The notes below the pieces were generated by a model. The model saw only the letters and a program-made list of their open reading frames with translations, was not told where the DNA came from and made no database searches. A program made the translations under genes and the position numbers. From NCBI GenBank assembly GCA_011524975.1, contig WTJD01000097.1, positions 1 to 39,844 of the forward strand: 39,844 nt of DNA, read 5' to 3'. This document shows, piece by piece, positions 2,369 to 39,807 of this stretch (its first letter is position 1; each line of letters begins with the position of its first letter). The DNA is from Lysobacterales bacterium. GTDB taxonomy: Bacteria > Pseudomonadota > Gammaproteobacteria > Xanthomonadales > SZUA-36.

Positions 2369-3442
2369 CTAGCCACTCCTCGGCATTCTGCCCTGGCGCC
2401 TCAGCCAGAGATAGCCGGCCAGCAGCACGGCTCCATGAACCCACCACAGGCCCAGCCAGGGCGGCATGGTCCCATCCGCAATCCAACTGCGCCAAAGAAC
2501 CAGCACGTTGCTGTAAAGGGCATAAATGAGGATACCGAGTATGACCCTGCCACTGCGCCCCTCACGCGGGTTGGAATGCGATAGTGGGATGGCCAGGAAG
2601 GCGAGAACGATGACGGCAGTGGCCGGCGTGAACCGCCACTGTAGTTCCGCCAGGGCCGCCCGATCCCAGTGGGTCACCAGCTCCGCGCTGCTTTTTGACT
2701 CCAGCTCCTTTTTCCTCTGTCGCTTTTCCGGCTCAGGCAGGCGCAGGTCATTGCGTGCGAACTTCAGCCTGCGCAGGTCCAGGCCGTCGTCAAAGCGCTC
2801 CACCACCTCGCCATCTATCAGTGTCAGGTAGCGGTCCCGGCTTTCAGGGTCCAGCCAGTAGCTGCCTGAGCGCCCCACCCATACCTGCTCGCGATCGTCA
2901 TCGATCAGGTGCACAAAAATATTGTCCAGGGACTGACCGTCCTCACCCATGGATTCCACGTAGATGACCAGTTCCCCGCTGCGCATCACGTGGAACTGGC
3001 CGGGTTGCAGCCCCCAGACGGCGGCGTTGCGAACCGCTTCATCGAGCTTTCGTTCCGCCAGATTGGTCGCCATCGGCGCCAGAGCCAGGTCGATCAGCAG
3101 CAACATCATGGCAATGGGAAGGGTCAGGTTGAGCAGGGGCCGGAGAAGATTTTGCCAGCTGAAACCACTGGAACGCATGACCGACATTTCCTGATCCCGG
3201 TAGAGCCGCCCCAGCCCCCACATAATGGCCACAAAACCGGCCAGCGGCAGCACATGCCCGACCGCCCGGGGCAGGTACAGCACAAACTGCGTACCCACCA
3301 GCCCGGCCGGCATGCGCCCGTCGGCGATGTCGTCAAGCATATCGCCAAGGAACAGCGCCAGCAGCACGATGATGAGGATGAAACTGACAGCCAGCAGCGT
3401 CAAGGCCCACTCGCGCAGTATGTAACGCTGGAGAATCGTCAC
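2369..3442 (-). CDS. lptF: LPS export ABC transporter permease LptF
   Basis: The partner permease of LptG in the LptB2FG lipopolysaccharide exporter, 357 residues. It has an N-terminal helix (TILQRYILREWALTLLAVSF), a second helix pair, the coupling-helix region LYRDQEMSVMRSSGFSW, a periplasmic jellyroll domain (about 115-265) and C-terminal helices. I chose the GTG at 3442 because the protein then begins, as LptF proteins do, only a few residues before the first helix. A longer reading from the TTG at 3493 would add 17 unlikely residues. It is divergent from pepA, as in Escherichia coli, and is the first gene of the lptF-lptG operon. Confidence 0.93.
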   Translation of the reverse strand: MTILQRYILREWALTLLAVSFILIIVLLALFLGDMLDDIADGRMPAGLVGTQFVLYLPRAVGHVLPLAGFVAIMWGLGRLYRDQEMSVMRSSGFSWQNLLRPLLNLTLPIAMMLLLIDLALAPMATNLAERKLDEAVRNAAVWGLQPGQFHVMRSGELVIYVESMGEDGQSLDNIFVHLIDDDREQVWVGRSGSYWLDPESRDRYLTLIDGEVVERFDDGLDLRRLKFARNDLRLPEPEKRQRKKELESKSSAELVTHWDRAALAELQWRFTPATAVIVLAFLAIPLSHSNPREGRSGRVILGILIYALYSNVLVLWRSWIADGTMPPWLGLWWVHGAVLLAGYLWLRRQGRMPRSG

Positions 3443-3591
3443 TCGCGATCCCCCGGGGCCGATTTCACTCTGTGCATTCTCAGCTTCCTCCAACCCTTGT
3501 AGAATGGCGGGCTGTTCCGCATTTTAACAGCACCCAACGCGTCCGGCCGACCGATGGCACAGGTCACGGGGATGAAAAGGATTTTGAGCCC

Positions 3592-5064
3592 ATGAAACTC
3601 ACACTGAACAACAAAACCCCACACGCGGTGGAATCCGCCTGCATCGTGGTTGGCGTCTTCGAAGACGAGCCCCTGACCGGGGCGGCTGCAGATCTCGATA
3701 AGGCCAGCAGCGGCGCAATCAGCGCGATGATCGAATCCGGTGACATCGATGCATTCCGGGGCCGCACCACCCTGTTGCACGGCCTGCCCGGCGTCAAAGC
3801 CGACCGCATCCTGGTGACCGGGCTGGGTGAGGCCGACCGGTTTGACCGGGTCAGGTTCGACATGGCCTGCATGAGCGCGGGCGCCTTTCTGCGCGAGCAC
3901 TCCGTGACCGAAGCGCATATCTGCCTGCATGAAGCTGAGTGCGAGGACCTCGATCTCGCGTGGCGACTGCGTCATGCCGGCATCGCTTTCGATCGGGCCA
4001 ATTACGTGTACACCACCACCAAGCCACGCAAGGACGACTCGCCCCATCCGCTGAAGTCCGTCAGCTTCCAGGGCGACGCCGACCTGGAGGACGCCATTCG
4101 GCAGGCCGAGGCCATCGCCGCCGGCTACCGCCGGGCCCGCGAGCTGGGTAATTTACCGCCCAATATCTGCAATCCGGCCTACCTGGCTCAACAGGCGAAA
4201 TCCATCGCCGAGGCGCACGAACGCGTCGATGTGGACATCCTGAAGAAAAAGGATATGGCGGCGCTGGGCATGGACGCGCTGCTGGCTGTGGGCCAGGGCA
4301 GTGAGAACGGGCCGCGGCTGATCGTACTGAAGTACAACGGCGCCGGGGATGAGGAGCAGCCGGTGGCATTGGTTGGCAAGGGCATCACCTTCGACAGCGG
4401 CGGTATTTCACTCAAGCCCGGCGCCAACATGGATCAGATGAAGTTCGACATGTGTGGCGCCGCCACCGTGCTCGGCGCCTTCGAGGCCTGCGTGCTGCTG
4501 AACCTGCCGATCAATCTGATCACCATCGTTGCCGCGGCCGAAAACATGCCGGACGGGCGCGCCTACCGCCCGGGCGACGTGTTGACCAGCATGTCCGGAA
4601 AAACCATCGAAATCCTCAATACCGATGCCGAGGGCCGCCTCGTACTCTGTGACGCGCTCACTTACTGTGAGCGATTCAACCCGCGTGCGACCATCGACGT
4701 GGCCACGCTGACGGGCGCCTGCGTGGTCGCGCTGGGCCATCATGCCTCGGGGCTGATGAGCCCGCATGACGACCTGGCGGAGGAACTGATTGGCGCAGGC
4801 AGGGTGTCGGTCGATCGCGCGTGGCGTCTGCCCGTATGGGAGGACTACCAGCAGCAGCTGAAGACGCCGTTCGCCGACATGAAAAATGTCGGGGGTATGC
4901 CGGCCGGAGCGATCACGGCGGGCTGCTTCCTGTCGCGCTTCGCCAAAAAACAGCGCTGGGCGCACATCGATATCGCCGGGTCCGCCTGGAAATGGGGCGA
5001 GGCGGAAGGCGCCACCGGTCGGCCCGTCGGCTTGCTGACCCAGTACCTGATCAACCAGTCATGA
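3592..5064 (+). CDS. pepA: leucyl aminopeptidase (M17 family, PepA)
   Basis: A 490-residue cytosolic M17 aminopeptidase that removes N-terminal residues from peptides; in enterobacteria PepA also binds DNA in carAB control and Xer recombination. The N-terminal macro-like domain covers about residues 1-160. The catalytic domain carries the two-metal site: the K-G-I-T-F-D-S-G-G block near residue 265 and the signature NTDAEGRLVL near residue 345. The start at 3592 is preceded by an AAGGA-type ribosome binding site and gives the usual length; an in-frame GTG at 3472 would add 40 residues without family support. It leads the operon pepA-holC-valS, with holC starting 9 bp after its stop. Confidence 0.97.
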   Translation: MKLTLNNKTPHAVESACIVVGVFEDEPLTGAAADLDKASSGAISAMIESGDIDAFRGRTTLLHGLPGVKADRILVTGLGEADRFDRVRFDMACMSAGAFLREHSVTEAHICLHEAECEDLDLAWRLRHAGIAFDRANYVYTTTKPRKDDSPHPLKSVSFQGDADLEDAIRQAEAIAAGYRRARELGNLPPNICNPAYLAQQAKSIAEAHERVDVDILKKKDMAALGMDALLAVGQGSENGPRLIVLKYNGAGDEEQPVALVGKGITFDSGGISLKPGANMDQMKFDMCGAATVLGAFEACVLLNLPINLITIVAAAENMPDGRAYRPGDVLTSMSGKTIEILNTDAEGRLVLCDALTYCERFNPRATIDVATLTGACVVALGHHASGLMSPHDDLAEELIGAGRVSVDRAWRLPVWEDYQQQLKTPFADMKNVGGMPAGAITAGCFLSRFAKKQRWAHIDIAGSAWKWGEAEGATGRPVGLLTQYLINQS

Positions 5065-5073
5065 GGAAGGCCA

Positions 5074-5505
5074 ATGGCCGCTTGCCAGGTTGATTTTTAT
5101 ATTCTCCAGACGCCCAGCCTGGACGGCCATCGACTGGCTTGCCGGCTCGCGCTGATGGCCTGGGAAAGAGGCCATGCCGCACAGGTGCTGGCCGCCGATA
5201 AGGAGCAGGCGCAGGCATTCGACGACCTCTTATGGCGCAGCCCGGAAGAGCGCTTCGTGCCGCACGCCCTGGCGGGCGCGCCCGAGGCGGCCGCCGCGCC
5301 CGTCACGATCACCACCGCCGAGGGCCTGGAACGTGGCAGCGTGCTGATCAACATCAGCCGGGCGCCCGTCACCGAGCCACAGCGCTTTGAGCGTTTGCTG
5401 GAGATCGTGCCCCATCAACCGGAAGACCGTGAGGCTTCACGGGACAAATTCCGCTACTACCGCAGCCAGGGCCTGGACCCGAAGACACACGATATCTCAG
5501 GATAA
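5074..5505 (+). CDS. holC: DNA polymerase III chi subunit
   Basis: HolC (chi) joins with psi (HolD) and connects the replicative clamp loader to single-strand DNA-binding protein on the lagging strand. The 143-residue product has the expected size. It starts VDFYILQTP, followed by a helix [15 protein letters not shown], and contains the conserved block [15 protein letters not shown] near residue 50 and [16 protein letters not shown] at the C-terminus. A good AGGAAGG ribosome binding site overlaps the pepA stop. The stop overlaps the valS start by one base (TAATG), which implies translational coupling. The pepA-holC-valS order is the E. coli order, which supports the call. Confidence 0.95.
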
Positions 5506-8258
5506 TGGATAAAAGTTACTCACCCGCAGAGATAGAAAAACGCTGGTACGAGACCTGGGAGGCATCGGGCGCGTTCACACCCGCCGCCGATGGCGACCCG
5601 TTTTGTATCATGCTGCCGCCGCCCAATGTCACGGGCAGCCTGCACATGGGCCACGCGTTCCAGGATACGATCATGGACATCCTGACGCGCTACCACCGCA
5701 TGAGCGGCCATGCCGCTTTGTGGCAGCCGGGCATGGATCACGCCGGTATCGCGACCCAGATGGTCGTGGAACGGCAATTGGGTGAACAAGGCGTTTCCCG
5801 GCACGATCTCGGCCGGGAAAAATTCGTCGAAGCCGTGTGGGACTGGAAAGACCAGTCTGGCGGGCAGATCCAGAACCAGATGCGCCGGCTGGGCGTCTCC
5901 GTGGATTGGGAGCACGACTGCTTCACCATGGATGAGAGCCTGTCAGAAGCGGTGCGAAAAGTGTTTGTCGACCTCTACGACGACCAGCTGATCTACCGCG
6001 GCAAACGCCTGGTCAACTGGGACCCCGTGCTGCACACCGCCCTGTCCGACCTCGAAGTCATGTCGGAAGAAGAAAACGGAAAGCTCTGGCATATCCGTTA
6101 TCCGCGCACCGACGGCAAAGGTTACGTGGTGGTCGCTACCACGCGTCCGGAAACACTGCTGGGCGATACCGCGGTCGCGGTCAATCCGGGCGACGAGCGT
6201 TACTCGGACCTGGTCGGTCTCGAACTGGAATTGCCGCTGACCGGCCGCACCATCCCGGTCATCGCAGATGACTACGTCGACCAGGAATTCGGAACCGGTT
6301 GCGTCAAGATCACGCCGGCGCACGACTTCAACGATTACGAGATCGGCAAGCGGCACGACCTGCCGCTGATCAATGTGCTGAATGAAGACGCGAGCCTGAA
6401 TGAGCAAGCGCCCGAGGCCTATCGCGGCCTGGATCGGTTCGAGGCCCGCGAGCGGATTGTGAATGACCTGGAAGCCGGCGGTCTGCTGGAGGGCATTGAG
6501 AACCATCGCATGGCCGTCCCCAGAGGAGACCGCTCGCACGCGGTGGTCGAGCCGTACCTGACCGATCAGTGGTATGTAAAGATCGACCCATTGGCCAAAC
6601 CGGCCATCGAGGCCGTCGAAACCGGCCGCATCCGTTTCGTGCCGGAGAACTGGAACCGAACCTACTTCGACTGGATGCACAGGATTGAAGACTGGTGCAT
6701 TTCACGGCAACTCTGGTGGGGTCACCGGATACCGGCATGGTACGACGCCGACGGCGGCATCCATGTCGGACTGGATGAGGCAGATGCCCGAGCGCGATCC
6801 GGGCTGGGGCCGGAGGTTCCGCTGACCCAGGACGAGGATGTGCTGGACACCTGGTTCTCTTCCGCGCTGTGGCCCTTCACCACGCTGGGATGGCCCGAGC
6901 GCACGGAACGCCTGGCCAGGTTCTATCCGAGCAGCGTGCTGGTCACCGGCTTCGACATCATCTTTTTCTGGGTTGCCCGAATGATCATGATGGGCCTGAG
7001 GTTCATGGACGATGTCCCGTTCCGGGAAATTTACATCCATGGCCTCATCCGTGACGGACACGGTCAAAAGATGTCGAAGTCCAAGGGTAATGTGCTTGAC
7101 CCGCTGGATTTCATCGACGGCGTCGATGTCGAAACCCTGGTCGCAAAGAGAACCACCGGCCTCATGCAGCCCAGGATGGCGCCGGCGATCGAGAAAGCGA
7201 CCCGCAAGGACTTCCCCAATGGCATCCCGGCCTACGGCTGCGACGCGCTCCGTTTCACCTTCGCCGCGCTCGCGACGACCGGGCGTGACATGAGCTTCGA
7301 GCTCGGGCGCATCGAAGGCAACCGGAACTTCTGCAACAAACTGTGGAACGCGGCGCGCTTCGTACTGATGCAAACCGACGGCCACCGGATCTCGGCGCCG
7401 GAATCACTGGGCGTGACGGATCGCTGGATTCTCTCCCGCTGCCAGATGATGGTTCGCGATGTCAGGCAGCATATCGACAGCTATCGCATGGATCTGGCCG
7501 CGCAATCGCTCTATGAGTTCATCTGGAACGAATACTGTGACTGGTATCTCGAACTCTCCAAGCCCGCCCTGCAGGAAGGGACCGAGGCCGCGCAAAACGC
7601 GACCCGTCATACACTGCTGAGCGTACTGGAAGTCACGCTGCGCGCCCTGCATCCGTTCATGCCGTTCATCACCGAGGAAATCTGGCAGCGCCTCAAAACG
7701 CCACTGGCCATCGCCGGGGACAGCGTGATGAAGCAGCCTTACCCCGAGGCAGGTCAGCGAGATACCGAGGCCGAGAGCGCCATCGGCTGGTTGAAAGCGG
7801 TTTTGCTGGGTATCCGAAGAATTCGCTCTGACCTGGACTTGGCGCCTTCGCTGGAGTTAACGGTCAATTTCCAGGGGGGCGGTGACGCTGACCGCGCCAG
7901 TTTCGAGCGCTTCGAGCCCGTGTTGGGCAGTCTCGCCCGTGCACGCTCATTCCACTGGTTGAATGACGAGGACGACAGCTCCCAATGCGCGGTTGCGCTG
8001 GTCGGCGATTTGAAAGTACTGATTCCGCTGGAAGGACTGGTGGATGTCGAGGCTGAATTGGCCCGCATCAACCGGCAACTCGCGCGCGAGCAGCAATTAC
8101 TCAAGCAATCGCAGGCCAAGATGGGCAACCGGCGATTCATCGACAATGCGCCCGAGTCAGTGGTGGCCAGGGAAAAAGAACGGCTTGAAACGCACGAGGC
8201 CAATGTCCAGCGCCTGCGGGAACAGATGGTTCAGCTGGAGCAGCTCGGCCAGGGCTGA
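5505..8258 (+). CDS. valS: valyl-tRNA synthetase
   Basis: A class I aminoacyl-tRNA synthetase of 917 residues that charges tRNA-Val. The ATP-binding HIGH element appears as HMGH at residues 47-50 ([15 protein letters not shown]) and the KMSKS element at 522-526. The editing (CP1) domain, which hydrolyses Thr-tRNA-Val, lies between them and contains [16 protein letters not shown]. The anticodon-binding domain follows, and the C-terminal 70 residues form the tRNA-binding coiled coil typical of bacterial ValRS. The gene is complete and of normal length. It is coupled to holC by a 1-base overlap, and no leader regulation is visible. Confidence 0.98.
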
Positions 8259-27573: not shown

Positions 27574-28800
27574 CTAGAAGTCGGCGGTCAATTGCAGCCA
27601 GAGCTTTGTGGTGTCTGCGTAGGCCGCCGATGCGCCTTTGAAATCTGCGAATTTAAGCAGCACACCGTAGTGATCCGCGAAGCGCCGGGAGAATGAGACA
27701 TCGATTTCGGAACCGTATCCGGCCGCGCCTGATTCGGCGGCAAAGTCATGATAAGCCACGTACCACGACCACTGGTTCAATGGGCCTTTAACACCCACGA
27801 ATAAATCTTCCAGCCCCGCTTCAGGCGTCGTGGAAAACCTGTCCGCCCAGCCATTGAACGCATGCAGCGTGGCCAGCGGGGTTCTGAACGCCTGGCCAGG
27901 ATCACCCTCCTGCCCGCCGAGCGACTCGAAACCTGCAAAAACCTGTGCGTACTCGGGGCCCCATGACAGGTCCAGCCTGTAGTAATCAGCGTCATAGGGG
28001 ACCGGGTTATCACCCGTCTCTGACTGCCGCGCGTACTCCAACGCGTAGGTAAAATTCGACCGCTCGAGTTCCTTCTGCCCTGTCAGCCTCAGGCCCCAGG
28101 TGCGATTCGAAACCGAGGGGTCGTCCTCGTTATCGATATCAAACCAGTACACGGCCAACTTCCCCACACGGTCGAACTGCCTAGTGGCATTCAACAGGTA
28201 AGTCTCGTGCTTCTGGTCACCGGCCGGCACGTCATTGCCGAAGATGCGATGAACCTTGCCGACGTAGGCGAGGCTGTAATCAATCCCTCCCGTAGCGGAG
28301 CCTTCAACCGACCATGCGTCGTAGGTCTGCTCGTTCTGTCGCCAACCCACGTTACCTATAAACCTGGCGTTGTTGATGATGATCCGCTGACGCCCGAGGC
28401 GGGTTTTCCATCGGTCTGCCTGGTATTGCAGGTAGGCCTGGTTGAGATCCTCGCCCTTGGGATCTGCAACCAGCGGGTACTGCGCGCGGTCCGGTGTGTT
28501 CCCGCCGCCCGCGTTGTATCGATCGCTGCCGACCTGGGCCACGTAATCCAACTCGACGAAGGCCGAGAATCCACCAAGGCTGCCCGTGAGAAAATTGAGC
28601 CTGCCCCTGAGCGTAGACGCCAGGGCGTCCCGATCAAAGCCCGCTTGCTCTACCTGCTCGAGACGGTATCGAAAGGAAATACCGACCTTGCTTTCGGAAC
28701 CGGCCTGATTCTCGGGCCCATCGGCGCTGGCCCAGTCGATGTTTGCGGCCTGAAAACACCCCGACAAAAAGAGGAAGGCGCACGCTTTGAGCGGTCTCAT
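27574..28800 (-). CDS. alginate-export-like outer-membrane porin
   Basis: A 408-residue protein with a signal peptide (RPLKACAFLFLSGCFQAANI, cleavage near residue 19-26) and a full-length outer-membrane barrel ending LWLQLTADF with the terminal Phe used by the BAM machine. The segment GRQRIIINNARFIGNVGWRQ near residue 137 is the characteristic block of the alginate_export/AlgE-like family. No alginate genes are nearby, so the substrate is unknown; many members are general or carbohydrate porins. Cys15 is within the signal region and is not followed by a lipobox. It has a GGGAG ribosome binding site and is divergent from nsrR. Confidence 0.85.
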   Translation of the reverse strand: MRPLKACAFLFLSGCFQAANIDWASADGPENQAGSESKVGISFRYRLEQVEQAGFDRDALASTLRGRLNFLTGSLGGFSAFVELDYVAQVGSDRYNAGGGNTPDRAQYPLVADPKGEDLNQAYLQYQADRWKTRLGRQRIIINNARFIGNVGWRQNEQTYDAWSVEGSATGGIDYSLAYVGKVHRIFGNDVPAGDQKHETYLLNATRQFDRVGKLAVYWFDIDNEDDPSVSNRTWGLRLTGQKELERSNFTYALEYARQSETGDNPVPYDADYYRLDLSWGPEYAQVFAGFESLGGQEGDPGQAFRTPLATLHAFNGWADRFSTTPEAGLEDLFVGVKGPLNQWSWYVAYHDFAAESGAAGYGSEIDVSFSRRFADHYGVLLKFADFKGASAAYADTTKLWLQLTADF

Positions 28801-29106: not shown

Positions 29107-29550
29107 ATGCGCCTGACCCGATTTACCGACTATTCTCTGCGCGTCCTGATCTACTTGGGTTTGCAGGATGACCAGCTGGTCACCATTCGCAAGATCTCAG
29201 ATGCCTATGGCATCTCCCGTAATCACCTGATGAAGGTCGTCAGTCTATTGACCCGCATGGGCTATCTGAAAGCGCAGCGCGGCCCCGGGGGCGGTATCAG
29301 GCTGGCCCGAATACCGGAAGACATCAACCTGGCTGATGTGATCCGCGACACCGAGGAAGATCTCGTGATGGTGGAGTGTTTCGACGAGGAAGGCAGCTGC
29401 GTCATCAGCCCGGCCTGTAAACTTCACCACATTATCGGTGAAGCGCTGAACGCCTACATCAGCACACTGCGTAAATACACGTTGCAGGATCTCATCGACC
29501 CGAAAGACGAACTGGCGCGCCTGCTGCAAGTAGAACGTAACGCCGCCTGA
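29107..29550 (+). CDS. nsrR: nitric oxide-sensing repressor NsrR (Rrf2 family)
   Basis: A 147-residue Rrf2-type repressor with an iron-sulfur cluster that is destroyed by nitric oxide, releasing genes for NO detoxification. The winged helix contains FTDYSLRVLIYL, ISRNHLMKVVSLLTRMGYL and RGPGGGIRLAR, all close to E. coli NsrR. Cluster cysteines are Cys91, Cys98 and Cys104 (C-x6-C-x5-C); E. coli has C-x4-C-x5-C. The C-terminal Y-T-L-x-D-L-x-D matches NsrR. No hmp, norVW or ytfE gene is in the window, so its targets lie elsewhere, besides a possible role at its own spacer. Confidence 0.92.
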   Translation: MRLTRFTDYSLRVLIYLGLQDDQLVTIRKISDAYGISRNHLMKVVSLLTRMGYLKAQRGPGGGIRLARIPEDINLADVIRDTEEDLVMVECFDEEGSCVISPACKLHHIIGEALNAYISTLRKYTLQDLIDPKDELARLLQVERNAA

Positions 29551-31530: not shown

Positions 31531-32286
31531 ATGATGATTAAAGACGCCATCATCAGCATCACCGGCGCGGGCGGCGGCCTTGGGGCGGCCATGGCCCGAC
31601 AGCTTGCCGCCGATGGCGCCAGGCTGGCCCTCATCGACCACGACATGGGACAGGTAGAGCCTTTGCATCGGGAACTGGGCGACGAGCGCTGCCTGGTGCT
31701 GCCTTGTGATGTAACCCGGGAAAACCAGGTCGACGGCGCGTTCGCCGCCATCACCGAGCATTTCGGGCGGCTGGACGCGCTGGTGAACAACGCCGGGATC
31801 ACCCGCGACGCAATGCTACTCAAATACCAGGAAGGCGAGCCCGTATCCCGCATGTCGCTGGAACAGTGGCGCGACGTCGTCGATGTCAACCTCACGGGCG
31901 TGTTCCTGTGCGGCCGTGCAGCCGCAGAGCAGATGGCCCGGGGCGGCCGGGGCGGCCATATCATCAACATCTCCAGCATTTCCCGCGCCGGCAATATCGG
32001 GCAAAGCAATTACGCGGCGGCCAAGGCCGGCGTCGCCGCGCTGGCGGTCACCTGGGCCCGGGAACTGGCACGATACGGGATTCGCGCCAATGCCATTTCA
32101 CCCGGATTCATCGGTACCGAAATGGTTCGCGGCATAAAGCCGGAGATCATCGATAAGCTACAGGGCATGATCCCAGTGGGCCGGATCGGCGAACCTGATG
32201 AGATCGCTCACACGGTCAAGTTTCTGCTGGAAAACGAGTTCATCAACGGCCGCAATATCGAGATTGACGGCGGCATGCGGTTATAG
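31531..32286 (+). CDS. short-chain dehydrogenase/reductase, FabG-like
   Basis: A 251-residue classical SDR oxidoreductase. The cofactor loop TGAGGGLG (residues 11-18), the NNAG motif and the catalytic triad in N-I-S-S-I-S...S-N-Y-A-A-A-K-A-G (Ser, Tyr, Lys) are all present. The C-terminal ISPGFIGTEMV and the ending N-I-E-I-D-G-G-M-R-L are typical of FabG-type 3-oxoacyl reductases. Without acpP/fabF neighbours it is more likely a specialised reductase than the fatty-acid FabG; the substrate cannot be read. It stands alone and converges with the aldehyde dehydrogenase gene. Confidence 0.9.
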   Translation: MMIKDAIISITGAGGGLGAAMARQLAADGARLALIDHDMGQVEPLHRELGDERCLVLPCDVTRENQVDGAFAAITEHFGRLDALVNNAGITRDAMLLKYQEGEPVSRMSLEQWRDVVDVNLTGVFLCGRAAAEQMARGGRGGHIINISSISRAGNIGQSNYAAAKAGVAALAVTWARELARYGIRANAISPGFIGTEMVRGIKPEIIDKLQGMIPVGRIGEPDEIAHTVKFLLENEFINGRNIEIDGGMRL

Positions 32287-32338: not shown

Positions 32339-33922
32339 TCAGGCGGATTCGGGCGTTTCCCAGCCGGCCGGCGCCGGGCCCTGGTCCATGATGATTTCGC
32401 GGTGCCCGCTCCACGTGGAAATAATGGCCTCGGGGGTACCGATGCCCGCAGCCCGCGGATCACCACAGGGCCCGAACCAGTGGTTCTGGGGCGCGCCGGT
32501 GGTGCGTGCGCGCATACCGCAATACGTGGTTCCGTTGACGCTGGCCGCCAGCACCTGCTGCTGAAAGTGAACATCCGCGCTGACCACGGCCGCGGTCAGG
32601 TGGTGTGACATGCGCTCCAGCATGCCCAGCACGGCCGGCAGGTCATCATCGCCGTATTCCACGATCACCTGGAACGGCCCGAACAGCTCGGTGGTCACCC
32701 GATCGAAATGCTCACCCGCCGCCTTGCTCAGCGGCACCTTGACGGCGGTGGCCTCGTAGGCGCCATACACATCAGGAATGGCATGCCCGCGCAGCGGCTC
32801 GCCACCAAAGACCAGCTCTGAGCCCGGGATGCTCAGCATGCCCTCGATATGCCCTTTGATCCGGTCGTTGGACCAGGTCAGCACCGGGCCCAGCGACAGA
32901 TTCTCCAGGCTGCGACGACCCGCAAGTTCGCCCAACTTGGGCATCAACGCCTCAGACCAGTTCTCATGCGCAAACAAAATGCTCTGCGCCGAACACTTCT
33001 GGCCGGCCGCGTTGTAAGCGTCCTCATCGCACTGCCAGGCCACGTAGTCCAGCCACGATGGATCAAAGTCCGGCCCCAACACTTTCCAGTCAAAGCCTGC
33101 ATCTTCCACGCGCACCCGGCCATTCATGACATCAGCAATGATTTCCGCCACGTCGCTGGAACCGGTGAACTGGACCATCCGCAGCATGTCCTTGGCCTGC
33201 TCGATCAGCTCACCCATGACGCGCCCGCGGCAATGGATCAGGTCGACATCCCCGGGCGGCAGGCCGCAGTCAATCAACAAGCGCAGAAATTGCTCAAAAA
33301 CGGCGCTGACTTTCGAGTCCACTTTCACCAACGGCTTGTTGCCCATGAATAAGGCGCCCATGACCTGCAGGGCCGGGATCTCCAACGGGAAATTGAAGGG
33401 CGCCACAACCGCGACCGGGCCCCATGGCCAGCGATAGCCCCTGGACTCCTGCCCGGGATGGTTGCCCGGATTGGAAAACCCCCTGCCCAGAAAACGCACA
33501 CGGTCACCGGCGAAGTTCTCGAGGAAGACCCGCGTGACCACCACCTCATTCAGGCACTGCAGCCGGCTCTTGGGCATGACGCGCTGCAGCAGCTTGACGA
33601 AGTACTCCTCTACGGCCGGCTCAGCCAGCCGCGCGGCCGCCCGAGCACACACATCGCCCAGCATCAGGTAGCGCTGCGGCTGCTTCCAGGGGTTATGCAA
33701 GCCCGTCTTCGGGCATCGCGCCAGGCTGTCGATAAAGGGCTGGACGTCCGTGGTGTCCGGCACCCGCAGAAACTCGCCCCCGTGCAGCGGGTCCGGTATA
33801 TCCTGGCGAATGCTGCTGGCGATGTGCCAGGAGCCGTCAAGCAAATTATGGACATTGCCCGGCGCTTCCGGTGTCATGCCATGAAAGGGGTCCAGGGTGG
33901 CGAAGTCGGGGATCTGGCTCAT
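32339..33922 (-). CDS. L-glutamate gamma-semialdehyde (P5C) dehydrogenase, plant ALDH12 type
   Basis: A 527-residue NAD-dependent aldehyde dehydrogenase. Nearly the whole sequence follows plant mitochondrial P5C dehydrogenase (ALDH12), as I recall that family: QPFIDSLARCPKTGLHNP, WGPVAVVAPFNFPLEIP, MGNKPLVKVDSKVS, VEDAGFDWKVLGPD, AGQKCSAQS with catalytic Cys310, TTGAPQNHWFGP and the C-terminal G-P-x-P-x-G-W-E. It would oxidise glutamate semialdehyde to glutamate, the last step of proline breakdown. No putA or proline dehydrogenase is nearby. I chose the ATG at 33922 before SQIPDF; an in-frame ATG at 33970 is possible. It is divergent from GH43. Confidence 0.9.
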   Translation of the reverse strand: MSQIPDFATLDPFHGMTPEAPGNVHNLLDGSWHIASSIRQDIPDPLHGGEFLRVPDTTDVQPFIDSLARCPKTGLHNPWKQPQRYLMLGDVCARAAARLAEPAVEEYFVKLLQRVMPKSRLQCLNEVVVTRVFLENFAGDRVRFLGRGFSNPGNHPGQESRGYRWPWGPVAVVAPFNFPLEIPALQVMGALFMGNKPLVKVDSKVSAVFEQFLRLLIDCGLPPGDVDLIHCRGRVMGELIEQAKDMLRMVQFTGSSDVAEIIADVMNGRVRVEDAGFDWKVLGPDFDPSWLDYVAWQCDEDAYNAAGQKCSAQSILFAHENWSEALMPKLGELAGRRSLENLSLGPVLTWSNDRIKGHIEGMLSIPGSELVFGGEPLRGHAIPDVYGAYEATAVKVPLSKAAGEHFDRVTTELFGPFQVIVEYGDDDLPAVLGMLERMSHHLTAAVVSADVHFQQQVLAASVNGTTYCGMRARTTGAPQNHWFGPCGDPRAAGIGTPEAIISTWSGHREIIMDQGPAPAGWETPESA

Positions 33923-33993
33923 GCGCTTTTCCGGGCTGAGATTCAATACCGACAGTTTAGCAGTCCCCATCCGTACCGGCAGCGCGAACCCCT

Positions 33994-34060: not shown

Positions 34061-35743
34061 ATGCGGATACGATTAATTATTCTGATGCTGTCACTGGTCG
34101 GCCACGCGGTCGCCCAGACGCCATCCGGGTACACCAACCCCATCTTGAGGGGCGGCTACCCTGACCCCTCAATCTGCCGCGTGGGCGAGGACTATTACCT
34201 GGTCAACTCGACTTTCGAGTACTTTCCCGGCCTGCCCGTTCACCACAGCCGTGACCTGGTCAACTGGGAATTGATCGGCTACGGCCTGCACCGCGAGGAC
34301 CAGGTTACCGGCGCGGTGAACCTGGTGGATGTGCAGTCCAATGGCGGCATCCACGCGCCGTCCATCCGCTGCCGCGATGGTGTGTTTTACATCATCACCA
34401 CCAACGTTTACCTGCCGCCCGGTGAAGGCGCGGAAACCGAATTCGTCAATTTCGTCATCACCGCCACCGACCCGGCCGGCCCTTGGTCAGAGCCTCATGT
34501 GCTGGAAGGGGCGCCGGGCATCGATCCCGATTTATTCTTTGATGACGACGGCCGCGCCTGGTACGTCGGCACCCATTCCCCCGATGAACCCAACTTTCCA
34601 GGCGAGGGTGAAATCTGGCTGCAGGAGGTCGATACCGATCAATGGGCGCTGATCGGTGAGCGCTATTTCCTCTGGCGCGGCGCCTGCGGCGGGGTGTGGG
34701 CAGAAGGGCCGCATCTGTATAAGCGAGACGGCCGTTACTACCTGCTGGTGGCCGAGGGCGGCACCCACTTCAATCACGCCGTCACCATCGCGGTCAGCGA
34801 TCGCCTGACCGGGCCATATGAATCCAATCCGCGCAACCCCATCCTCACCTCCCGCCACCTGTCCTACGACAACTGGGTCAACAGCACCGGTCACGGCGAC
34901 CTGATCGAGCTGCCCGACGGACGCTGGTACATGGTGCTGCTGGGCATCCGCAACGACCTGGAGCGCCGGTCCAACATGGGCCGGGAAACCCACCTGGTGC
35001 CGGTCAGCTGGGAGCGCGAGCCCTTCGAATGGAAAGCAGTGAAGATCGAGTGGCCCGTGCCCGCGCCTGGGACCGGCCGCGTCGAACGGGTCAACCCGGC
35101 CGTTTTCGCCGAGACCCGCCAAGTGTTGAACGACGACTTCATCGACCGCTTCGAGGGCGAAGCGCTGAATCCGCGCTGGAATTTCCGTCGACTGCCCCTG
35201 CCGGGCAGCTGGTCGCTGCAAGAGCGGCCGGGCCATCTCCGCCTGCACGCGCACGCCAACGTCATCGCCGAACGCGGCCGGGCCAGCCTGGTCGGATTCC
35301 GGCAAACAGAAAGCGACTTCAGCTACTCCGCGCGCATGCGCTTTGACGCCCGCGAAACAGGCAGCGAGAGCGGGCTCTCGCTGTTTCAAAAAGACGACAA
35401 TTTCATCAATTTTACCGTCACCAGGCGCGAGGATGGGCCCGTGCTTCACCTGGCCATCGCCGGCAAGGATCAACCCACCGCTGTTGTCGAGGTGCCGCTG
35501 CCCGAGTACAACGGCGCGATCACGCTGCAGGCCTCCTCGGAGGCCGACGCGTATCGTTTTGGTTACCGCCTCGATGAGCGGGATACTTTGATCGAGGTGG
35601 CCGAACTACCCGCCGGGCTCATTCTCAGCCGTGGCTATACCGGGGCCAACCTCGGCCTGTACAGCACGACCAATGGCCGGGCGGTCCAGAGCCACGCCGA
35701 TTTCGAATGGGTCAGGTACATCGCCCATCCGCGCCTCCGATGA
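34061..35743 (+). CDS. glycoside hydrolase family 43 protein, secreted
   Basis: A 560-residue secreted glycosidase, probably a beta-xylosidase or alpha-L-arabinofuranosidase acting on plant or algal xylan/arabinan side chains. The signal peptide (RIRLIILMLSLVGHAVA) ends near residue 18. The five-bladed propeller carries the GH43 residues: base Asp35 in GGYPDPS, Asp155 in APGIDPDLFF and acid Glu215 in VWAEGPH. The C-terminal half (about 355-555) is a beta-sandwich domain of the GH43 C2 kind. The start is the ATG before the signal peptide; the frame is open much further upstream, opposite the aldehyde dehydrogenase gene, but that part has no support. No other carbohydrate gene is adjacent. Confidence 0.92.
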   Translation: MRIRLIILMLSLVGHAVAQTPSGYTNPILRGGYPDPSICRVGEDYYLVNSTFEYFPGLPVHHSRDLVNWELIGYGLHREDQVTGAVNLVDVQSNGGIHAPSIRCRDGVFYIITTNVYLPPGEGAETEFVNFVITATDPAGPWSEPHVLEGAPGIDPDLFFDDDGRAWYVGTHSPDEPNFPGEGEIWLQEVDTDQWALIGERYFLWRGACGGVWAEGPHLYKRDGRYYLLVAEGGTHFNHAVTIAVSDRLTGPYESNPRNPILTSRHLSYDNWVNSTGHGDLIELPDGRWYMVLLGIRNDLERRSNMGRETHLVPVSWEREPFEWKAVKIEWPVPAPGTGRVERVNPAVFAETRQVLNDDFIDRFEGEALNPRWNFRRLPLPGSWSLQERPGHLRLHAHANVIAERGRASLVGFRQTESDFSYSARMRFDARETGSESGLSLFQKDDNFINFTVTRREDGPVLHLAIAGKDQPTAVVEVPLPEYNGAITLQASSEADAYRFGYRLDERDTLIEVAELPAGLILSRGYTGANLGLYSTTNGRAVQSHADFEWVRYIAHPRLR

Positions 35744-37450: not shown

Positions 37451-38611
37451 CTAGAACTTATGCCCTCCCGCCAGCACCCGGTGGGTGGGCCGGAAAATAT
37501 CCTTCTCGTAGCGATCCGCCAGGAAGTTCAGGCCGTCGATCAGGTCCCACTTCGAGATCTGACGTCCAATGGTGACCGGCCCAACGGGGGCGCCGAAGCC
37601 ATTGATCATGGCCAGGTCGACCTCGTTCATCGTGTCGACCACACCCTCCTGGATCAGTTTGGAGGCTTCGTTCACCTGCACCATGTAGGGCCACAGGAAG
37701 TTGAACTTGCTGGTCGCCCTGGTCATGTCGATGGCGGGTCTCTGGCCGTCGATCCACTCGAAGTAGCCTTTGCCGGTCTTCTTGCCCAGGTCGCCGCGCG
37801 CCTGCATGGCCACCAGGTGTGATGCGGGGCCGTACTCCGCGCCCAGCGTTTCGGCAAAGTAATTGCTGACATTCACCATGATGTCGATGCCGACATAGTC
37901 GGTCAGTTCGCAGGGGCCCATGGCCGCGCCCATGGCGCGAACGAAGGCATCCAGCGCCTCCGGCTCGATCTCGCCCCGTTCGACAATCTCGGCAACCAGC
38001 ACCGCCGGCGCCTGGTTGACCCGGTTGGCGATGAAACCCGGTGAGTCCTTCTTCACATAAACGCCCACTTTCCTCTGCTTCGCGGCGTAATCCATGCCAA
38101 TCTGCATTGTCTCGTCCGAGGTGCCGTCAGCGCGGATCACTTCCACCAGCCGCATCAGCACCGCGGGGTTGAAATAATGCAGGCCAAAGACCTTGTCCTG
38201 CCTGGAGGTCGCGCTGGCAATCTCGGTGATGCTCATGGTCGAGGTATTGGAGGCCAACAGTGTATGAGCCGGCGCGGCCTTGTCGAGGTCGCCGAAGACC
38301 TGCTTTTTCAGATCCATGATCTCCGGCACCGCCTCAATCACCAGGTCGGCATCGGCCGCCGCCTCGGCGAGGTCCGTAGTGGTCTTCAGCAGCTTGTTCC
38401 GGATCGCCTCGTCCAGTTCCGCCGGTACCCTGCCCTTTTCCACCAGCTTGGCGACGCTGGAAAAAATGCGGTCCCGGCCCCGCTCCACGAATTCGTCCTT
38501 GATGTCATACAGGTTGACGCGGTAGCCGGTCAGCAGGGCCACTTCCGCGATGCCATGTCCCATGTCGCCCGCGCCCACGACGGCAACCGTCTTGATGTCA
38601 TTGATGTTCAT
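37451..38611 (-). CDS. 3-hydroxyacyl-CoA dehydrogenase
   Basis: A 386-residue NAD-dependent enzyme that oxidises L-3-hydroxyacyl-CoA to 3-ketoacyl-CoA in beta-oxidation or related CoA pathways. The Rossmann motif is VAVVGAGDMGHGIAEV at the N-terminus, with ASNTSTMSITEI and the catalytic FGLHYFNPAVLMRLVEV further on. A C-terminal helical domain (SPGFIANRVNQAP onward) follows, with a second, duplicated one. It is a stand-alone dehydrogenase without a fused hydratase. I chose the ATG at 38611, which overlaps the thiolase stop (ATGA); this makes a two-gene operon with the thiolase. Confidence 0.94.
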   Translation of the reverse strand: MNINDIKTVAVVGAGDMGHGIAEVALLTGYRVNLYDIKDEFVERGRDRIFSSVAKLVEKGRVPAELDEAIRNKLLKTTTDLAEAAADADLVIEAVPEIMDLKKQVFGDLDKAAPAHTLLASNTSTMSITEIASATSRQDKVFGLHYFNPAVLMRLVEVIRADGTSDETMQIGMDYAAKQRKVGVYVKKDSPGFIANRVNQAPAVLVAEIVERGEIEPEALDAFVRAMGAAMGPCELTDYVGIDIMVNVSNYFAETLGAEYGPASHLVAMQARGDLGKKTGKGYFEWIDGQRPAIDMTRATSKFNFLWPYMVQVNEASKLIQEGVVDTMNEVDLAMINGFGAPVGPVTIGRQISKWDLIDGLNFLADRYEKDIFRPTHRVLAGGHKF

Positions 38612-39807
38612 GCCTGGGCCCTCGCTTCGTTTTCTATGATCATGGCCACGCCCTGGCCGCCGCCCACGCACATGGTGGCGCAGCCGTAGCGGCCGCCCTC
38701 GGCTTGCAGAATGCGGGCCAGCGTGCCGACCAGGCGGCCGCCGCTGGCGCCCAGCGGGTGACCGATGGCGATGCCGCCACCCTTCACATTGACCCGGTCC
38801 GGGTCGATACCCAACTCCCGGATGGCATACAGCGCCACCACCGCAAAGGCCTCGTTGATCTCCCAGTAATCGATATCGGAAGCCTGCAGGCCGGCGGCGT
38901 CCAGTGCCCTGAGCGAGGAAGGCACCGGCCCCGTGCCCATGATGTTGGGCGCCACGCCGGCAAAGCCGATCGACCGAATGGTGGCCAGCGGGGTGAGCCC
39001 CCGGGCCTCGGCCACTTCCCTGGAGGTCAGCACCAGGGCGGTCGCGCCCGCGTTCAGCGGCGAGGCATTGCCCGGATGGATGCTGCCATTTTTGCGGAAT
39101 GAAGGTCTCAGCTTGGCCAGGTCTTCCAGGGAGGTGTCTTCGCGCACGGCCTGGTCGCGATCGACCGTCATGGTGGAGCCATCCACCTGCTCCACTTCCA
39201 GCGGCAGGATTTCCTCATCGAAGAAGCCTTCCGCCCGCGCCTCGCTGGCGCGCTGATGCGAGCGCACGCCCCAGGCATCCATCTCGGGGCGCTCAAAACC
39301 CATGGCCGCCAGCTTCTCGGCGGTCAGGCCCATGTTCATCCCGGTGTAGAAATCCCAGTGCGCCAGCCTGGGATCGGTGAGCAGGCGGAGATTCAGTTCA
39401 ATTTTGCCGTCACCGGTCATCGGCAGGCGCCCCATGTGTTCCATGCCGCCCACCATGACCACGTCCGCGAAGCCCTGCGCAATCTCCATGAAACCCACCT
39501 GCAGGCCGGCCATGGTCGAACCGCACTGCTCATCGATCAGTTTGCTCGACGTGCGCTTGTCCAGGTTGGCCAGCAGCATCGGGCTGCGACCGCCAATGCT
39601 GAAGTTTTCACCCACCGCCTGGGCGCACCCGACGATAAAGTCGTCCACATCCGCCGGCTCCAGGCCGGCACGCGCGATGGCCTCCGGCAGCAGGCTGGCC
39701 AGCAGTTCATCAGCCCGCATTTTGAACAGCCAGTCACGTGAGGGGTCATTCGGCCGGCAGCGGGATTGCGCCGTCCGCACATAGCTCGCAATGACGACAT
39801 CGCGCAT
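38608..39807 (-). CDS. acetyl-CoA C-acyltransferase (thiolase)
   Basis: A 399-residue thiolase that cleaves 3-ketoacyl-CoA with CoA to acetyl-CoA and a shortened acyl-CoA. The acyl-carrying Cys95 is in EQCGSTMAGLQ; the other active-site groups are in NEAFAVV, GGGIAIGHPLGASGGR (His) and CATMCVGGGQG (Cys). It has a consensus AAGGAG ribosome binding site and lies first in an operon with the 3-hydroxyacyl-CoA dehydrogenase. An acyl-CoA dehydrogenase or enoyl-CoA hydratase may lie beyond the right edge. Degradative chain-length preference cannot be read from the sequence. Confidence 0.95.
   Translation of the reverse strand: MRDVVIASYVRTAQSRCRPNDPSRDWLFKMRADELLASLLPEAIARAGLEPADVDDFIVGCAQAVGENFSIGGRSPMLLANLDKRTSSKLIDEQCGSTMAGLQVGFMEIAQGFADVVMVGGMEHMGRLPMTGDGKIELNLRLLTDPRLAHWDFYTGMNMGLTAEKLAAMGFERPEMDAWGVRSHQRASEARAEGFFDEEILPLEVEQVDGSTMTVDRDQAVREDTSLEDLAKLRPSFRKNGSIHPGNASPLNAGATALVLTSREVAEARGLTPLATIRSIGFAGVAPNIMGTGPVPSSLRALDAAGLQASDIDYWEINEAFAVVALYAIRELGIDPDRVNVKGGGIAIGHPLGASGGRLVGTLARILQAEGGRYGCATMCVGGGQGVAMIIENEARAQA

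Follow-up and report, generated by a model that had tools for sequence, protein, structure and literature searches.

A bacterial ALDH12 gene, predicted to encode a P5C dehydrogenase, in a gammaproteobacterial genome and its relation to the plant enzyme

The gene at positions 32339..33922 (reverse strand) of the analyzed window, a stretch of 39,844 nucleotides on contig WTJD01000097.1 of a Lysobacterales bacterium, is an ALDH12 gene, as judged by sequence, tree, and structural model together. Its open reading frame, homology, placement, and model predict a protein of 527 amino acids acting as an NAD-dependent delta-1-pyrroline-5-carboxylate (P5C)/glutamate-gamma-semialdehyde dehydrogenase. From family membership, catalytic residues, and the gene context of other bacterial ALDH12 loci, we consider it probable that this genuine bacterial ALDH12 converts free P5C to glutamate and handles P5C outside PutA. 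The start was chosen at 33922 (MSQIP...), and the copy from a genome of the same genus begins likewise; an alternative in-frame ATG is found at 33970.

Search of PDB sequences with the window protein gives ALDH12 of maize (PDB 6d97, source organism Zea mays) as the top match, with 664.8 bits and E 7.8e-199 over residues 4–525; the second match is PutA, with 67.6 bits and E 6.5e-18. The BLASTP alignment with the maize enzyme runs end to end, with 300 identical residues out of 524 (57%). The signature TTGAPQNHWFGP occupies residues 474–485 (codons at 32468..32503, reverse strand, coordinates computed from residue numbers), and the second motif VEDAGFDWKVLGPD is also present. Hence, both the near-continuous agreement with plant P5C dehydrogenase claimed in the preliminary description, which had quoted these two motifs, and the assignment to ALDH12 hold: the next family scores 67.6 bits against 664.8, the protein belongs to the clade of its own formed by ALDH12, and 6d97 is also its closest structural match. 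Residue 4 of the window protein aligns to residue 26 of the maize chain, and thus the bacterial protein lacks the first part of the latter.

The only Pfam match is PF00171 (ALDH domain); the protein therefore lacks the fusion of a Pro_dh domain to ALDH that defines PutA. Among the NCBIfam matches listed (25 of 37), no model exceeds its cut-off; the top one is a PutA model, at 85.3 bits versus a cut-off of 747. The models for ALDH4-type enzymes score 53 (TIGR01236), 59 (TIGR01237), and 77 bits (PRK03137), far below the respective cut-offs of 613.6, 659.65, and 648, which places the protein outside this type. As none of the listed models reaches its cut-off, such genes probably carry a generic aldehyde dehydrogenase name.

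Asn, Lys, Glu, Cys, and Glu are the catalytic residues of aldehyde dehydrogenases. In an alignment of the window protein with ALDH12 from maize, Myxococcota, and a SAR86-like bacterium, two PutA domains, an ALDH4-like protein, and another ALDH, residues Asn177, Lys200, Glu273, Cys310, and Glu412 of the window protein align with their counterparts in PutA and the other ALDHs, and none of the five varies among 34 bacterial ALDH12 rows. Here, Glu273 (codon at 33104..33106, reverse strand) corresponds to the general-base Glu, and Cys310 (32993..32995, reverse strand) to the catalytic Cys. The TTGA stretch of ALDH12, which we take to be the substrate anchor loop, aligns with IGA/TGA in the PutA rows and with TTGA in the ALDH4-like row. 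Full-length homology, a separate clade, and the five catalytic residues together characterize the protein as ALDH12.

The AlphaFold model, built with the 34-row alignment, has a mean pLDDT of 82.5 and pTM of 0.85. Compared with 6d97, it yields Z 43.7 (470 aligned residues, 1.9 A), the next entry being at Z 33.4. The low-confidence parts (residues 141–164, 309–311, and 480–507) cover Cys310 and a large share of the signature loop; on the geometry of these two, the model is silent.

With plant ALDH12 (maize 6d97), the window protein thus shares whole-length homology, the signature, the catalytic residues, and the best structural match; it differs in being bacterial, in coming from a genome that also has PutA, and in belonging to a subclade other than that of maize. 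With PutA, it shares the predicted reaction of the second domain and the aligned catalytic columns; it consists, however, of the ALDH domain alone, is encoded apart from the PutA of its genome, and is 21.0% identical to the aligned domain of that PutA. With the ALDH4-type enzymes, it has in common the predicted reaction and the aligned TGA-type stretch, while model scores and the clade, separate from the one ALDH4-like row, set it apart.

The gene is flanked by an SDR family 3-oxoacyl-ACP reductase-like gene (31531..32286, forward strand, convergent) and by a gene for a GH43 glycosidase with a GH43_C2 domain (34061..35743, forward strand, divergent; its start is assumed, from a signal-peptide-like N-terminus). 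Neither has an evident role in P5C metabolism, and neither ornithine aminotransferase (OAT) nor another P5C partner is found beside ALDH12 in the window, a difference from the ornithine catabolic operons described below, where OAT is adjacent. The GC content of the gene resembles that of its contig. Elsewhere in the window, we observed a protein with a weak Alginate_exp match (27574–28800, reverse strand; 31.3 bits, cut-off 25.2), an Rrf2 regulator that most resembles NsrR without reaching the NsrR cut-off (29107–29550, forward strand), and tandem 3-hydroxyacyl-CoA dehydrogenase-like and acetyl-CoA acetyltransferase genes with overlapping open reading frames (37451–39807, reverse strand).

A single Pro_dh match is present in the genome (3.24 Mb on 293 contigs, completeness 96%), located in an open reading frame of 1056 amino acids on a contig separate from that of ALDH12. 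The same frame contains an ALDH domain that retains Glu and Cys, and hence encodes an uninterrupted PutA; ALDH12 is therefore additional to PutA. The preliminary description had noted that no proline dehydrogenase is close, which is correct for the surroundings of the gene but not genome-wide, given PutA on another contig; ALDH12 as a stand-in for PutA does not survive this finding, and replacement of PutA by ALDH12 is rejected. OAT (TIGR01885) gives no match at E 1e-100 in this genome, at its completeness of 96%.

In the bacterial family of the window's genome, Pro_dh matches are seen in 37 of 39 genomes, in 34 of these 37 within open frames of 987–1298 amino acids. Full-length ALDH12 occurs in six of the 39 genomes, with an additional contig-edge fragment in G015, and is therefore an optional extra here. 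The copy from the same genus is 82% identical to that of the window, and four further copies are 71–73% identical. None of the six full-length carriers has an OAT match at E 1e-100; the only family genome with OAT over the cut-off (1/39, G009) lacks ALDH12, and OAT as the partner of ALDH12 in this family is rejected.

Bacterial relatives were collected by scanning genome contigs with two peptide patterns, which miss relatives lacking those peptides; 117 relatives were confirmed, and the best 80 were examined. These come mostly from Woeseiaceae and other gammaproteobacterial metagenome-assembled genomes (MAGs), and from SAR86 and its relatives; also among the best 80 are four Myxococcota and one Ca. 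Magasanikbacteria MAG (L096). ALDH12 is found in 2 of 369 evenly drawn Gammaproteobacteria, with at most four candidates scored per genome, and the window's genome is one of the two. The search of Myxococcota covered five genomes, at least four of them reached via ALDH12 loci, and gives no frequency. Viral contigs yielded 29 pattern matches and no ALDH12 relatives; plasmids gave no ALDH12 match at E 1e-100. ALDH12 is already known as a family, and its occurrence in bacteria has already been stated, in a passage of a diatom study (PMC10888605) that cites Korasick et al. (2019). Our literature search met no report placing ALDH12 in myxobacteria or gammaproteobacteria; within the literature searched, its bacterial locations and the bacteria closest to the plant form seem to be new.

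Analysis of gene context (68 of the best 80 of 117 loci include 2.5 kb downstream) reveals links to ornithine and proline metabolism. In eight of the 80 loci (L076–L078, L080, L084–L086, and L089), ALDH12 is followed by an OAT family gene on the same strand, with gaps of −21 to +10, and then by a gene for a CtlX-like hydrolase. Three of these OATs were scanned, and all exceed the TIGR01885 cut-off of 378.4 (533.5, 510.2, and 536.2 bits); three scanned hydrolases score 270–288 bits, under the CtlX cut-off of 334. CtlX is described as a putative citrullinase with the motifs FPNN and HTN in a passage of PMC9007349. An ornithine-forming step ahead of OAT would be the natural reading of the CtlX-like hydrolase. 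The hydrolase of L089 (8816–9709) has FPNW and HTD where CtlX has FPNN and HTN, and its substrate may therefore differ from citrulline. All eight OAT loci fall inside one 13-row clade, and hence represent few independent events.

A methionine-type aminotransferase family gene (typed on the member from L024) directly follows ALDH12 in 11 of the 80 loci, and a CN hydrolase gene is found about 1.1 kb past ALDH12 in 13 of the 80. L024 (7604–9525) and similar loci show ALDH12, the methionine-type aminotransferase, and the CN hydrolase (PRK10438, over the cut-off) in this order; the latter pair resembles a transaminase plus an omega-amidase. Locus L096 has the gene order proB, a DAO-type oxidoreductase, proS, ALDH12, and proA. 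The top PDB match of the oxidoreductase is 1y56_B, and a passage of PMC1949818 identifies 1y56 as an L-proline dehydrogenase complex of Pyrococcus horikoshii. The GC content is about 60% in the middle stretch versus about 38–40% at proB and proA; the GC-rich part (2642–7545: oxidoreductase, proS, and ALDH12) is either an imported proline cassette or a chimeric assembly join.

We also surveyed 50 selected carrier genomes from the best 80 loci, which are related to one another and of unstated completeness, counting a Pro_dh match under E 1e-50 as PutA-type. PutA-type matches are found in 26, stand-alone-type ProDH alone in 13, and no Pro_dh match in 11. OAT over the cut-off is seen in 12/26, 13/13, and 6/11 of these, respectively, compared with 52/369 in the draw of Gammaproteobacteria; in five of the 50, Pro_dh and OAT are both absent. 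Carriers without PutA thus have OAT in 19 of 24 cases, and those with PutA in 12 of 26 (Fisher p 0.02, kinship ignored); despite this raw value, a link between OAT and the absence of PutA is not supported by tree-independent pairs. The 30 carriers tested (the 24 without PutA and six of family f1) have no match above the cut-off of TIGR01236 or TIGR01237. Since the control genomes seldom pass either (0 of 14 for TIGR01236, 3 of 14 for TIGR01237), the absence of ALDH4 from carriers is a weak result. One carrier without a Pro_dh match encodes an ALDH4-like protein of 522 amino acids (L121, 1483–3051; 389.7 bits to PRK03137, cut-off 648), which may be a second P5C dehydrogenase.

The phylogenetic tree was constructed for 43 of the best 80 loci, picked across clades, the window protein, the maize enzyme, and six outgroup rows (two PutA domains, one ALDH4-like protein, and three other ALDHs). 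ALDH12 forms a single clade apart from these six (support 100/99); a position inside ordinary ALDH4, as represented by the one ALDH4-like row and two PutA domains, is not observed. Next to the window protein stands L021 (100/97), and a grouping of the window protein with L032 and L036 is less certain (94/98). The maize enzyme, the one plant sequence sampled, groups with the four Myxococcota rows (100/98), and L096 joins next (97/95); maize and L096 are long branches, which calls for caution on their placement. Trees that force maize into the window's lineage (p 0.0025) or together with L075 (p 0.009) are rejected, both groups having been chosen once the tree was known. With up to 10 changes per column, the outgroup branches are saturated, and they place the root inside ALDH12 only loosely, among gammaproteobacterial rows. 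Constraining family f1 to one clade, as a single acquisition would require, costs 24 log units and is not rejected (p 0.137).

Regarding the origin of the gene, identity as an ordinary bacterial ALDH4 or PutA-type P5C dehydrogenase merely resembling ALDH12 has practically no chance of being right: the NCBIfam model that scores highest is one for PutA, yet it stays far below its cut-off, while identity to the PutA, ALDH4-like, and another ALDH row is 21–23% and the ALDH12 clade is separate; such identity is refuted within the rows used (one ALDH4-like, two PutA). A recent plant or algal donor, or contaminating eukaryotic DNA in the assembly, would agree with the strong similarity to the plant enzyme and with the rarity of ALDH12 in the gammaproteobacterial draw, but is very unlikely in view of the copies in the same genus and family, the flanking genes of bacterial type, the contig-like GC content, the single uninterrupted frame, and the rejected grouping of maize with the window's lineage. 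The preliminary description had proposed an ALDH12 lineage shared by gammaproteobacteria and plants. The presence of ALDH12 in gammaproteobacteria is borne out; the Myxococcota rows, however, are closer to maize. That the plant enzyme descends from, or is sister to, the gammaproteobacterial lineage is thus improbable: most of the best 80 of 117 loci are gammaproteobacterial, and the loose position of the outgroup root makes an origin of the whole family there possible, but maize is placed with Myxococcota and then L096, and its identity is 61.9% to L097, 59.3% to L077, and 57.8% to the window protein. Among the sequences compared, Myxococcota, rather than the window's lineage, are the nearest to plant ALDH12.

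Regarding function, the main competitor of P5C oxidation is a protein of the same family with another job: with PutA kept, ALDH12 could have come to act on a different semialdehyde or to clear aldehydes in general. The PutA-length Pro_dh frames of most family genomes suggest that PutA already takes care of P5C oxidation, ALDH12 is optional in the family, and Woeseiaceae-like loci have other neighbors, of which the methionine-type aminotransferase gives no direct pointer to P5C. Also counting against the P5C role are the lack of an adjacent partner and the window's own genome, with PutA and without an OAT match. Nevertheless, we regard a different job as rather unlikely, as 34 rows, carriers without PutA among them, show no variation in the catalytic columns and in most of the signature, and the window protein retains its 57.8% identity to the maize enzyme. 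The P5C role is favored by the ornithine and proline gene links of other bacterial ALDH12 loci: these two contexts converge on P5C, hence, P5C oxidation is likely the general function of ALDH12, which fits the reaction of the plant enzyme. The enzyme of the window's bacterium would oxidize P5C using NAD, taking P5C that is not channelled in the tunnel of PutA; candidate supplies are ornithine-type transamination, spill-over, and biosynthetic P5C.

More tentatively, ALDH12 may be bacterial at its root, being carried by Myxococcota, Woeseiaceae-like, SAR86-like, and, by transfer, other bacteria, and serving ornithine/citrulline and proline routes as a stand-alone P5C dehydrogenase; the plant enzyme would then derive from the Myxococcota branch or be its sister. 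These results assign to defined bacterial lineages a P5C dehydrogenase family known from work on plants, and the operons of bacterial ALDH12 give testable roles. For the origin of the plant enzyme, the bacteria to sample are Myxococcota, not the gammaproteobacterial lineage of the window.
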